Assembly: GCF_012516475.1 (NCBI RefSeq)
Contig: NZ_CP051217.1
Span: forward strand, 620,001 to 684,000
Direction of reading: 5' to 3'
Origin: Parasphingorhabdus halotolerans
GTDB taxonomy: Bacteria > Pseudomonadota > Alphaproteobacteria > Sphingomonadales > Sphingomonadaceae
DNA length: 64,000 bases
Under the pieces are notes generated by a model. The model saw nothing but the letters and a program-made list of their open reading frames with translations, made no database searches and had not been told where the DNA came from. The translations under genes were made by a program, and so were the position numbers. Positions 534 to 52,662 of the stretch are shown here, in pieces. The number at the start of each line of letters is the position of its first letter. Within the stretch, counting starts at the first letter, position 1.

Positions 534-815
534 ATTCTAACCTTCAATTTTGGAGAAATCAGCGACAGTGTGGACAGCATCCCGCACCCGCGCCAGCAAA
601 GCAAGCCTGGCAGCGCGCTTGGCGGGGTCATCGTCGTTTACGGTGACATTTTCGAAAAATGCGTCAATCGGCACGCGGAGAGACGCGAGCGCGGCCATGG
701 CACCTTCGAAATCTTCGGCTTCGATGGCCGTTGCTGCCTTTGGCTCTGCGGTGTCGAGAGCGGTGATGAGGTCGCTTTCGGCTCTATCAGGCGTGTAGGA
801 AAGAGGCTCATTAAG

Positions 816-912
816 CCCCTCCTCTTCAGGGAGGGGTTGGGGTGGGGACTATCCTCGGCAGAGCTCTGTTGGTCAGAATCCCCACCCCCGGCCCTCCCCT
901 GAAGGGGAGGGG
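816..912. repeat. 97-bp palindromic element inside the glyS 3' part
   Basis: Two arms of 33-34 bases (CCCCTCCTCTTCAGGG... and its near-complement ending ...CCCTGAAGGGGAGGGG) surround a loop of about 30 bases containing CTCGGCAGAGCTCTG. The arms differ by a few substitutions and one base in length. It resembles dispersed G-rich/C-rich inverted repeats of proteobacterial genomes. It lies inside glyS, where it supplies the residues after KKEGGEN and contains the point at which the frame is lost. Confidence 0.85.
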
Positions 913-1898
913 TGAGTTCTCCCCGCCCTCTTTCTTCAAAATATTCGAAGCCCGCTTGTAGCCGGCGAGCAAATTCTCTCCGTCCGGCGTCTCCACAAAA
1001 GCCTGCAAAGCCTTCACCCGGGCGAGCAAGCGGACCAGATCATCTTCACCGCCAAGAGCAAACACCGCGTCGATCAGGTCATGGCGAACACCCGCTTCGC
1101 GTTGCTGGACTTTGAGGCGGTCGGCCAGAAACTCCAATATTTCCGTCTTTATTGTCGGATGCCCTGCATCAGGATTTTCGGCCCGATTGTATCGATATCT
1201 ACCCAGATCAGTGCCAATCAAACCTGCGTCGAGCGCATCGACTAATTTGAAACGAATAACATTTTCTTCGATTAAACGCAGTATTCCTAAAGCCGCCCTT
1301 CTTAGCGCAAAAGGATCTTTTGAACCTGTCGGTTTCTCATCGATGACGAAGAAGGCTAATAAAGTATCCAGCTTATCCGCCAGACTCACCGCAACCGTCA
1401 CCGGATCGGTGGGCACTTCATCGCCCTGTCCGACCGGCTTGTAATGATCGCGGATCGCGTTTGCTACCGCCTGCGACTTGCCCTCTTTCTCTGCATAATA
1501 GCCGCCCATCAAGCCTTGTAGCTCAGGGAACTCGCCGACCATTTCGGTGACGAGATCGGCTTTGCAGAGACGTGCGGCCTCAGACACTTCACTATGAAAT
1601 GTATCACCGGGGCTGGACTGGTAAAAACCATTCCCTTCTAAAGAAACCAACCACTCGGCCAACTTGGCCACACGCTCTACCTTGTCGGCAACCGTACCCA
1701 GTTTTTCATGGAACACAATGTTGCTCAATTTCTTTGCATGATCCTCCAGCGGCGTCTTCTGGTCAAGTTCCCAGAAGAATTTCGCATCGGATAATCGTGC
1801 TGTGAGGACCTTTTCATTGCCTGCAACAATGGCTTTTCCGCCATCGGAGGCGCCTATGTTTGCTGTGCAGACGAAATTCGAGGTTAAACCACCCTTGT

Positions 1899-1971
1899 GC
1901 TCCGCACTTGATGCGGAGCTCTCCTCGGCTAAGCGCGAAGACGACGGGCGCTCCGGATCGTTGTCCGGAGC
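1899..1971. repeat. REP-like double hairpin translated in frame inside glyS
   Basis: Two perfect 8-bp hairpins: GCTCCGCA-cttga-TGCGGAGC at 1899-1919 and GCTCCGGA-tcgttg-TCCGGAGC at 1950-1971, separated by 30 bases. This is the layout of a paired REP element. It stays open in the glyS frame and encodes the low-complexity segment SAPDNDPERPSSSRLAEE plus flanks, which has no counterpart in ordinary GlyS between KYFVC and the T-x-NFVCTANI segment. Confidence 0.85.
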
Positions 1972-2871
1972 ACTGCTCGCTTCGCCTGCATATTGGCAAA
2001 CAAAATATTTCTGATTTACGCGAGCTGTCAGCTGGATCACCTCTTCCGGCACATCCAGAAACGCTGGATCAAATGACCCCAGCAAGGGCACCGGCCATTC
2101 GGTCAAGCCAGCGTTCTCGATAACCAGTCCTTCATCTTCAACCAGTTCCAAACCAGCGTCGGACGCCGCTTTGGCAGCACCCTCGCGGATAATATCCTGC
2201 CGCTCTTCATGATCGACCAAAACATGGCAGGCTCGCAGTTTCTCTGCATAGTCGCCAGCATTGCCTATGGTAATCATGCCCTGATGATGGAACCGATGCC
2301 CGACCGTCTCAAACCCAGACGTCACAACGTCAATGCTGCATTCCACCAGATCATCGCCAAATATCGCGACAATCCCGCTAAGAGGTCGCACCCAGCGCAG
2401 GCTTTCAGTGGACAGGCTAGCCTCGCCCCAACGCATCGATTTGGGCCAGGGAAACGCCTTGATAATTGCGGGAATGGCGGCTGCGAGAACTTCTTTGGTG
2501 TCCTGACCCGGTTTGTTGATAACCGCAAAATACGTCGCGCGCCCTTTGACGTCACGGACTTCCAGCTGGTCGCGGGTGACGCCATTTTTGCGGCAGAAGC
2601 CGTCCACAGCCTGATCGGGAGCCGCTTCGGGCGGCCCCTTGGCTTCTTCATTCACGGCTTCGGTCTGCGCGGGCAGGTCTTTTGCAATCAGTGCAAGCCG
2701 TCTTGGTGTCGAATAGACCGATATGTCAGACGCCTTAAGACCCGCCTCATCCATTTGCGCGACAAACAGATTTTCCAGATCAATCCGCGCCTTCGCCTGC
2801 ATCCGCGCGGGAATTTCTTCGGACAGGATTTCTAGCAGGAAGTCAGTCATTGCGACGCGCTCCCACAAACT

Positions 2872-2962
2872 CGTCATTGCGAGGAGCGGAGCGACGCGGC
2901 AATCCAGAGCGAGAGCGGCACGTGCAGACGCTCTGGATTGCTTCGCTGCGCTCGCAATGACG
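2872..2962. repeat. Palindromic intergenic repeat (CGTCATTGCGAG family), copy 1
   Basis: The left end CGTCATTGCGAGGAG and right end CTGCGCTCGCAATGACG are inverted copies, as are the internal GCAATCCAGAGC and GCTCTGGATTGC. The element fills the gap between glyQ and glyS and even reaches the sequence just upstream of the glyS start. A diverged second copy lies at 3943-4026. As RNA it would form a long hairpin in the glyQ-glyS message. Confidence 0.9.
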
Positions 2963-8298: not shown

Positions 8299-9095
8299 AT
8301 GACATTCACATTCGACCGCGAAACAGCGCTCATTCCGCTGGGCGATGGCCAATACATAATTGAGGCCAGCGCGGTATATCGCAACCCCACCGGCATGATG
8401 TTTGGCGGCTGGGTGGCTGCGATTGCTGCCAAAGCGATTGAGATGCATGAAGAGTGCCGCAGCCCGTTGGTTTCCCAAACGACGACCTATCTGTCCGGTG
8501 TTGGTCCGGGCGAGGTTGAGGTTTCCGCGAAGCTTTTGCGCTCTGGCGCTTCGACACAATTCTGGCGGGTAGAGCTATCGCAAAACGGTTCGCTGATAAT
8601 CGCTGCCGATCTTGTTTCCAGCAATCGCCGCAAGGCAGACCTCGAATATCAAACAGCAATGCCTGATGCGCTATCGCCAGAGAATTCGATAGATATGCAC
8701 GGCAAAAATCCCATGGCCCCGGCTGGGTCGTAACCTATGACCAAAAGCTGGTTAAAGGCGTGCCGTTTACCGTCAATGAAAGACCCGAGGCATTAGTCTG
8801 GATAAAAGAATCAGACGGGCGACCAATCGATCGCGCAAGTCTCTTCTCGATCTGCGACACGCCAATGCCGCGCACCTTCTTTCTGAGTGAAGATCTGCGG
8901 ATGGGCTCCACCGTATCCATGTCGACTTATATCTATGCCAGCGAACAGGATATTGCCGAAGCGGGATCCGATTATCTGCTGCTCCGGGTCGATGGCGCCG
9001 CCTGCCGGAACCATAAAACCGATTCCCGCGTCGAGCTCTGGTCAAAAAACGGTGCTTTGCTGGCCACCAGCAATCAAATTGGCTTTTTCCGCTAA
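8299..9095 (+). pseudogene. Acyl-CoA thioesterase family protein, split by a one-base frameshift
   Basis: The first frame (8299-8733) gives MTFTFDRETALIPLGDGQY with the hot-dog motif NPTGMMFGGWVAAIAAKA and ends prematurely at a TAA. The second half continues in another frame (HGPGWVVTYDQKLVKG…) to a stop at 9095. Together they give about 265 residues, the usual double hot-dog length of thioesterases that hydrolyse acyl-CoA to fatty acid and CoA. Adding one A to the AAAAA run near 8704-8708 joins the frames (GKKSHGPGWVV). This is one of several homopolymer breaks in the window, so a sequence error is likely; a recent inactivation cannot be excluded. Confidence 0.8.
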
Positions 9096-10585: not shown

Positions 10586-10673
10586 CGTCATCCTGAACTT
10601 GTTTCAGGATATCAAGCGACTAAACGCTGTTTTGGATTCGGCAGGAGATGCTGAAACAAGTTCAGCAGGGCGG
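10586..10673. repeat. Palindromic repeat between pth and ychF
   Basis: CGTCATCCTGAACTTGTTTCAGGA at the left and CTGAAACAAGTTCAGCAGGGCGG at the right are inverted copies of each other; each also forms its own short hairpin (TCCTGAA-cttg-TTCAGGA and GCTGAA-caag-TTCAGC). This is the CTTGTTTCAG-type element widespread in proteobacterial intergenic regions. It fills almost the whole gap between the two genes. Confidence 0.88.
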
Positions 10674-51522: not shown

Positions 51523-51757
51523 GAATGGTCATTAGGAGCAGCCACTGCCCGCTGCCAAGTGCAAAATTGCTGTCCTACACTCAAGCACGCGGATAAACCT
51601 TTCTAAATGAGCTTTGACTTTTTCAATTCGGTAGTTTTTCAAGAGAATATTGGACGCAGCAGTCTGACTGGGAGTTGCAGTAATTTATTTTGCCATTAGG
51701 GGTTGTGACCCTGTGTGACCCTATCGGGTTCTGACCATGAAAATTGAGGAACAGACA

Positions 51758-52662
51758 TTGCGAATTGCCTTCATGGGTACTCCTTATTTCGCGGTACCGC
51801 CGCTGAAAGCCTTGCACGCCGCAGGGCATGAAATTGCCGCTGTCTATTCACAACCGCCGCGTCGCGCTGGACGTGGGAAGAAGCTGACCCCTCGCCCGTT
51901 CAGAAAGTAGCCGAGGAACTGGGGCTCGAAGTCCGCACACCCGTATCGCTGAAAGATGATACCGCGCAGGCGGAATTTGCAGCACTCAATCTCGATGCGG
52001 CGGTTGTGGCGGCCTATGGGCTGATATTACCGCAAGCCGTTCTCGATGCTCCGAAAATGGGCTGCCTGAATATTCATGGCTCCCTGCTACCCCGATGGCG
52101 CGGTGCCGCTCCTGTACAGCGGGCGATATTGGTTGGGGATGAAGAGACAGGCGTTACGATTATGCAGATGGACGCAGGATTAGATACCGGGCCAATGTTG
52201 CTAAAATGGGTGACACCTGTTGATCGTAAAACCGCTGGTGAGCTGACTGATGAACTTGCAGGAAATGGCGCAAAACTCATGGTTCAATATCTTGCAGCGC
52301 CCGACAAATATCCTGCCGATGTCCAGGATGATGCGCTGGCAACTTACGCCAAAAAAATTACCAAAGAGGAAGCACGACTGGATTTTGCCCAAAGCGCCGA
52401 ACTAGTGGAGCGACAGATAAGAGCATTTAATCCAATGCCGGGCGCATTTTTTGAATATGATGGCAATCGCTATCGGATACACGCGGCAGAAATCAGCGAA
52501 CAATCGGGTGAAGTCGGAGTAACTATCGACGGTGAACTTAAAATTGGATGTGGCAGAGGTTCGATTAGGCCCACACTCATTCAAAAGGCCGGTAAGCCAG
52601 CCATGCAGCTCAAAGATTTTCTTAACGGCACAAAAATTCCTGTCGGCACGGTCTTGCAATGA
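51758..52662 (+). pseudogene. fmt: Methionyl-tRNA formyltransferase, split by a one-base frameshift
   Basis: Adds the formyl group to initiator Met-tRNA. The TTG at 51758, seven bases after GAGGA, starts [16 protein letters not shown]; an ATG at 51737 in the same frame is the alternative. The frame is lost after GRGKKLTP and stops at a TAG; the rest continues in another frame ([20 protein letters not shown]… [13 protein letters not shown]… [17 protein letters not shown]…) to 52662. One extra C in CCCC at 51888-51891 restores about 301 residues with the family motif [11 protein letters not shown]. Loss of fmt would be severe, so this is most likely a sequence error. truA overlaps the stop by four bases; def, the partner enzyme, is nearby. 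Confidence 0.9.

Follow-up and report, generated by a model that had tools for sequence, protein, structure and literature searches.

The glycyl-tRNA synthetase beta-subunit gene (glyS) of Parasphingorhabdus halotolerans contains a paired palindrome of the REP type that, with a probability of about 0.9, was inserted at a tolerant place in the gene and is translated. The window, by which we mean the whole 64,000-nucleotide stretch analysed, begins at position 620001 of a complete, single-contig genome of 3,269,179 bases (G000). The palindrome, here called family F1, is a dispersed repeat, is missing at this place (site B) in the nearest relatives, and leaves the reading frame open throughout. 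These observations support the original prediction of a REP-like element translated within glyS; judging from the open frame, the insert would be part of the protein. Palindromes unrelated to F1 lie in frame at the same GlyS sites in relatives, and the insert is most likely selfish DNA tolerated as protein rather than a selected domain.

Table 1 Features of the glyS region in window coordinates
Feature	Position	Strand	Remarks
glyS, glycyl-tRNA synthetase beta subunit as assembled, 674 aa	829..2850	minus	stop codon 826-828; Pfam PF02092, E 2.6e-182
Site A, just after residue 189 (VGHRFHH)	2281..2283	minus	empty in P. halotolerans; palindromic inserts in some relatives
Coding insert QYAGEASSAPDNDPERPSSSRLAEESSASSAEHKGG, GlyS residues 286-321 (site B)	1888..1995	minus	between VNQKYFVC and LTSNFVCTAN
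Paired palindrome, REP-dimer-like, family F1	1897..1973	none	hairpin pair and copies elsewhere
Hairpin 1 with outer bases	1897..1919	none	8-bp stem at 1899-1919
Hairpin 2 with outer bases	1950..1973	none	8-bp stem at 1950-1971
Second paired palindrome in glyS, C/G-rich, family F8	816..911		hairpins 816-836 and 892-911; site D, starting after residue 641
Conserved GlyS C-terminal part, ending ...VADFSKIEG	537..830	minus	open, in a frame other than that of the main ORF

Structure and genomic copies of the F1 element

Both perfect 8-bp hairpins named in the original prediction exist. The first, GCTCCGCACTTGATGCGGAGC, has a 5-base loop and the second, GCTCCGGATCGTTGTCCGGAGC, a 6-base loop; counting the outer GTG and CAC, the element spans 77 bp. 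The coding insert comprises the palindrome and some codons outside it. It is 36 residues long, close to the predicted 34 or so residues of low complexity near positions 290-320, is rich in Ala, Ser, Gly, Pro and Glu, and amounts to a net gain of 30 residues over insert-free relatives. The same place in the close relatives G021 and G026 reads VNQKYFVVHDKSGNLAPNF, 30 residues shorter. The frame used in glyS is open across the whole element, and by reading of the sequence the hairpin DNA has a stop solely in the GTG CTC CGC ACT TGA frame.

The window holds 14 hairpins with 8-bp arms, compared with a mean of 7.9 and a maximum of 17 in 60 first-order Markov sequences; because this count falls within the simulated range, lone hairpins are weak evidence. 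Close hairpin pairs number one in the window, compared with a mean of 0.033 and a maximum of 1 in 60 such sequences. Copies elsewhere are stronger support for F1 than these chance statistics. The genome returned 13 further matches at E<=1 (nine with E<0.05), equivalent to about 10 places, some matches being two halves of one element, and the anticipated recurrence of the hairpins was thereby found. Some of these copies hold both hairpins, with no ORF >80 aa across them. When the G019 copy was used as the query, eight of the ten genus genomes searched gave 11-42 matches each, and G006 and G021 gave none; many elements match on both strands, so the number of elements in the genus is lower than the number of matches. 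Full-length copies of the family exist in other assemblies.

Outside glyS, F1 lies mostly between genes, with 33 of 47 examined copies having no spanning ORF of 100 aa. Among the remaining 14, dnaE2 is the sole ORF tied to a real gene (L204 and L224, with Pfam run on L204). Pfam scanning of the 14 covered L204 and four others (L216, L228, L241 and L243), which gave no match and were set aside as doubtful. The element is read as ...APDNDPE...SASSAEH in glyS and as CSALDAE...ELRIKCGA in dnaE2, and the idea that coding copies keep one phase did not survive this comparison. Two species (L204 of G019 and L224 of G010) have identical copies of F1 in dnaE2, and the short flanks of these copies differ at a few bases. 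No transposase tied to F1 was found, Y1 matches being present in 13 of 32 genus genomes: G003, G005, G007 and G019 have GlyS inserts yet no Y1 match, and P. halotolerans has one, a broken gene that we take to be IS200-like.

Insert sites in GlyS, TrmD and TruB

Of 32 same-genus genomes, 30 yielded GlyS, the main matches being open over 579-935 codons; stop flags in G002, G005, G008 and G022 precede the likely start codon, and these ORFs are open. The nearest named relatives of the protein belong to Parasphingorhabdus and Sphingorhabdus, and none besides the protein itself exceeded 80% identity among the best 120 of 7997 matches. The genus alignment comprised 27 of the 30 loci (L020, L034 and L041 were omitted, no N-terminus being found) and revealed three insert sites: A after VGHRFHH, B after VNQKYFxC and D after NILKKE. 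G021 and G026, the most similar to P. halotolerans over the first 294 residues, are empty at site B. A wider set of 80 loci, mostly from Sphingomonadales, brought the comparison to 86 unique GlyS, obtained from 107 rows after 21 were merged as identical cores (two of these 21, L122 and L124, dropped out, the anchor motif being missing).

Site B is nine residues long in 60 of the 86 unique GlyS, 13 in seven and 15 in one, in line with the expectation that the insert would be missing from most relatives. No insert is present at A in 75 of 86 GlyS or at B in 68 of 86. Site A has 11 inserts of at least 20 residues, site B has 17 and a further one containing undetermined residues, and site D has 55. 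We called an insert of that length palindromic when its DNA folds far better than shuffled DNA (z < -2), which applies to 10 of 11 at A, all 17 scored at B and 32 of 55 at D, 59 in total; P. halotolerans site D and L103, the two known broken glyS, lie outside the 59, and the L103 break, which holds a run of N, was set aside. Hairpin folding of ten sampled GlyS inserts gave -36 to -69 kcal/mol.

By peptide pattern the inserts form four groups at A, six at B and seven at D, and the P. halotolerans GlyS is the only one of the 86 with F1 at site B. On the GlyS tree the families together require at least 10 changes (gains or losses) for A, 15 for B and 36 for D (in family D6, L015 was assigned by hand). 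Families are also stacked at some loci; the GlyS of L064, for example, carries three in a row at site D. The insert sites are probably turns or linkers, as suggested solely by alignment to the solved GlyRS beta chain 7yse_C, with its coordinates uninspected. A fold prediction for GlyS, built on 37 aligned sequences, was of poor quality, with a mean pLDDT of 43.7, and was not used.

In-frame palindromic inserts recur not only at the three GlyS sites but also in TrmD and TruB, and the case is not an isolated one. Four genomes, with stretches around glyS of 184, 160, 400 and 400 kb, supplied 195 ortholog groups for comparison; glyS (three genomes) and trmD were the groups with repeat-like internal inserts. 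The trmD inserts were those of G005 (z -2.1, found at five places of its stretch) and P. halotolerans (z -1.5, two places). One further internal insert (G026, z -2.2) has a 5-bp stem only and no second copy, and the remaining rows with z < -2 are N-termini or an ORF held doubtful. Because the compared region is centred on glyS, trmD is the only unbiased hit.

Across the genus, 26 TrmD loci could be read, of which 13 have an insert at a single site (z < -2 in 10) and 13 are empty; four of the 30 trmD loci, L266-L295, were unreadable. TrmD inserts measure about 33 to 88 residues, and the empty form 18. The insert of P. halotolerans itself folds weakly (z -1.4). For truB, 24 of 30 loci (L296-L325) fitted the pattern, representing 23 genomes; five were read by eye, four of them with an insert, and one was unreadable. 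At its single site 22 of the 23 genomes scored have z < -2, with several families represented. No clearly empty TruB site was seen among the loci read, except perhaps in G013, and insertion in TruB is for that reason deduced from the change of family.

Origin of the inserts and the frame break in glyS

The events behind the inserts can be pictured as follows. REP dimers would insert in many places; in an essential gene, only copies whose added length is divisible by three, whose reading frame lacks a stop and whose position falls in a tolerant loop would survive. Such in-frame survivors may not be very rare, because most frames of the hairpin DNA contain no stop. The peptide would then be tolerated as a spacer and might later drift, vanish or gain a further REP. 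A broader and rather unlikely view sees sites A, B and D of GlyS, together with TrmD around residue 80 and TruB around residue 180, as standing landing places where unrelated REP families would have entered, replaced one another or stacked in frame, at the same codons, through Sphingomonadales history. If this were true, REP insertion would prefer certain sites, perhaps an existing hairpin, or coded spacers would be useful in tRNA-binding proteins.

The main glyS frame does not run to the end of the gene. Its ORF spans 2877-826 on the minus strand, with a likely start at 2850, and terminates within the F8 element; the conserved C-terminus continues in another frame. The assembled protein is without the C-terminal domain PF05746, present in most relatives among the best 120 of 7997 matches. 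The predicted uninterrupted frame accordingly holds through F1 but not for glyS as a whole in this assembly. Frame changes relative to relatives affect three of 138 ortholog groups in P. halotolerans (glyS, a gene read as fmt and one other), all at or within C- or G-runs, compared with none of 170 in G003; G005 (1/150) and G026 (1/116) each have one, in either case in group 133, apparently a shadow ORF. Two repeat-free genes change frame at C-runs, at window 51720-52010 (read as fmt, against three relatives) and 8650-8780 (against two). Because these genes also break at C-runs, the glyS break is likely an assembly error, an indel being a better reading of the sequence than biology. An apparent frame change near the N-terminus in q56 looks like an uncertain start and was absent on repeat comparison. 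The site-B insert is independent of the glyS break; the break lies downstream of it and leaves the complete product of this glyS uncertain.

F8 copies occur elsewhere in the P. halotolerans genome, in frame in truB and also within ileS, ligA, valS and dnaE2 (two places), at L127, L128, L132, L131 and L144. In Pfam scans, a class I synthetase (taken to be IleS), the NAD-dependent ligase and one DnaE2 place are each split into two halves lying in different frames; for valS the scan covered the downstream half alone. F8 coincides with a frame change in glyS, in ileS, in ligA and at one dnaE2 place, and this would be accounted for if the elements were absent from the protein through ribosomal bypass or RNA removal, which would make length and frame irrelevant. 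Such an explanation is very unlikely: the frame read is free of stops in all 59 palindromic GlyS inserts, while stops occur in the +1 frame of 22 and the +2 frame of 47, a contrast favoured by the choice of ORFs as open, and frame changes occur at C-runs in the two repeat-free genes too, with G003 showing none in its 170 groups. As the cause of the P. halotolerans frame changes, bypass was likewise held less likely than indels at C-runs. The frame changes in this assembly (3/138, compared with 0/170 in G003) also raise the question of whether the palindrome itself is an assembly artefact. We regard this as scarcely credible, given that the site-B element is in frame, that its family has full-length copies in other assemblies and that many other assemblies show in-frame inserts at site B. 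Equally improbable is an ordinary length-variable GlyS loop unrelated to repeats. GlyS does contain a hypervariable segment, residues about 546-570, whose length and sequence differ between species without an obvious repeat signature, and 23 of the 55 long site-D sequences miss z < -2, so that the site-D linker varies without palindromes too; against this, all 17 scored site-B inserts of at least 20 residues have z from -3.0 to -11.9, and the DNA of the P. halotolerans insert is multi-copy.

Selection for the inserts, with an RNA hairpin or peptide in glyS, trmD and truB tuning expression, folding or tRNA binding, is improbable, though less so than the preceding alternatives. Fixed sites recur in three tRNA-related genes, and the TruB loci read include no clearly empty site, except perhaps G013. 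One inherited site-B family has a pN/pS of 0.31, compared with 0.26 in its flanks (six GlyS compared, a seventh omitted), and fewer silent changes than the flanks (0.19 compared with 0.32); this combination may point to a constraint on the DNA or the peptide, or to a recent exchange. Against selection, most GlyS are without an insert at A (75/86) or B (68/86), unrelated families share one site, and pN/pS is about 0.6-0.8 within three small insert groups (one at site B, two at site D). Most families, moreover, scatter over the GlyS tree about like shuffled labels, with A3, B2, D4 and D5 more clustered. Tolerated insertion of paired palindromes remains our preferred reading. It implies that many REP families have inserted repeatedly at a small number of shared places in essential tRNA enzymes, outside the Rickettsia order and with empty sites in close relatives. 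The system makes it testable how REPs lacking a known transposase move, what loops accept them and whether the peptide gains any role. For annotation it carries a warning that repeat DNA can underlie low-complexity stretches in the GlyS, TrmD and TruB of this group.

Relation to known repeat systems

In REPIN/RAYT systems, paired inverted hairpins are dispersed in the genome, and a RAYT gene is flanked by the same hairpin. F1 shares the paired dispersed hairpins; Y1 matches occur in 13 of 32 genus genomes, with one broken gene in P. halotolerans, and no transposase gene was tied to the element. F1 fits the broad kind of REP dimer (palindromes of 20-40 bp, multi-copy, often oppositely paired) in its two hairpins, its roughly 10 further places in this genome and its presence in eight of ten genus genomes, and the REP habit of lying mostly between genes in the 33 of 47 copies without a spanning ORF. 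E. lithoralis and S. alaskensis, two species with REPs inside coding sequence, both belong to the Sphingomonadales.

Passages of a 2013 study (PMC3733652) describe REPs inside ORFs, over half of them as dimers or groups coding for 20-30 residues. The genes named there include DnaE2, DNA ligase, truB and tRNA synthetase genes, many serving DNA synthesis and repair, with E. lithoralis and S. alaskensis carrying REPs in tRNA synthetase genes and in truB; truB is mentioned for other bacteria and for Rickettsia as well. Coding REPs in sphingomonads have therefore been known since 2013 (PMC3733652), and the kind is not new for this group; what is unusual here is site re-use. The same passages mention an insertion site common to recB of two Xanthomonas, sites differing in other genes. 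The word "glycyl" does not occur in the main text of PMC3733652, whose ORF list is in Additional file 3. Judged by titles and abstract openings, the papers found included no report of REP inserts in glyS or of site re-use by unrelated families.

The CGTC repeats of PMC3733652 resemble F1 in lying inside ORFs, including DnaE2, and are described there as having no association with transposase genes. As far as the source passages go, the two differ in terminal tag, stem start and tail. The terminal CGTC (or TGTC, CCTC) tag is missing from F1, in which GT stands directly 5' of the stem in nearly all of 60 hairpins and GTC falls within six bases before the stem in two; this sample was selected by stem pattern, stem and loop range. 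CGTC REPs have a stem of 8-9 bp and a loop of 4-5 bases, and the window element has 8-bp stems with loops of 5 and 6 bases; the 60 hairpins, being chosen by stem and loop range, do not bear on this feature. The first two stem positions are complementary A and T in CGTC REPs, whereas the stem of the window element starts with GC, and the tail is like CCA, whereas the bases after the F1 stem are mostly T or C, C, T (60 hairpins).

Discussion of coding palindromes has centred mostly on Rickettsia. Rickettsia palindromic elements (RPE), as portrayed in passages of PMC2229807 and PMC10969869, are repeat palindromes fused in frame to conserved proteins, and a guanylate kinase with such an insert is translated and active. 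F1 shares in-frame fusion within conserved protein genes, at glyS site B and in dnaE2. It measures 77 bp, however, compared with 105-146 bp for RPE (about 150 bp in the second source), and occurs in at least two phases, whereas each RPE is described as having a conserved peptide and one phase. The predicted analogy is thus fair in kind and fails in length and phase; F1 is not a Rickettsia RPE.

Other palindromes were observed in the window. Window 2875-2962, which separates glyS from the gene that follows (read as glyQ), contains paired repeats of another family (CATTGCGAGGAGCG...), and more of them lie beyond that gene, from about window 3943. The hairpin ATCCTGAACTTGTTTCAGGAT at window 10590-10610 has a core shared with the RHPELVSGS-coding family of GlyS site D.
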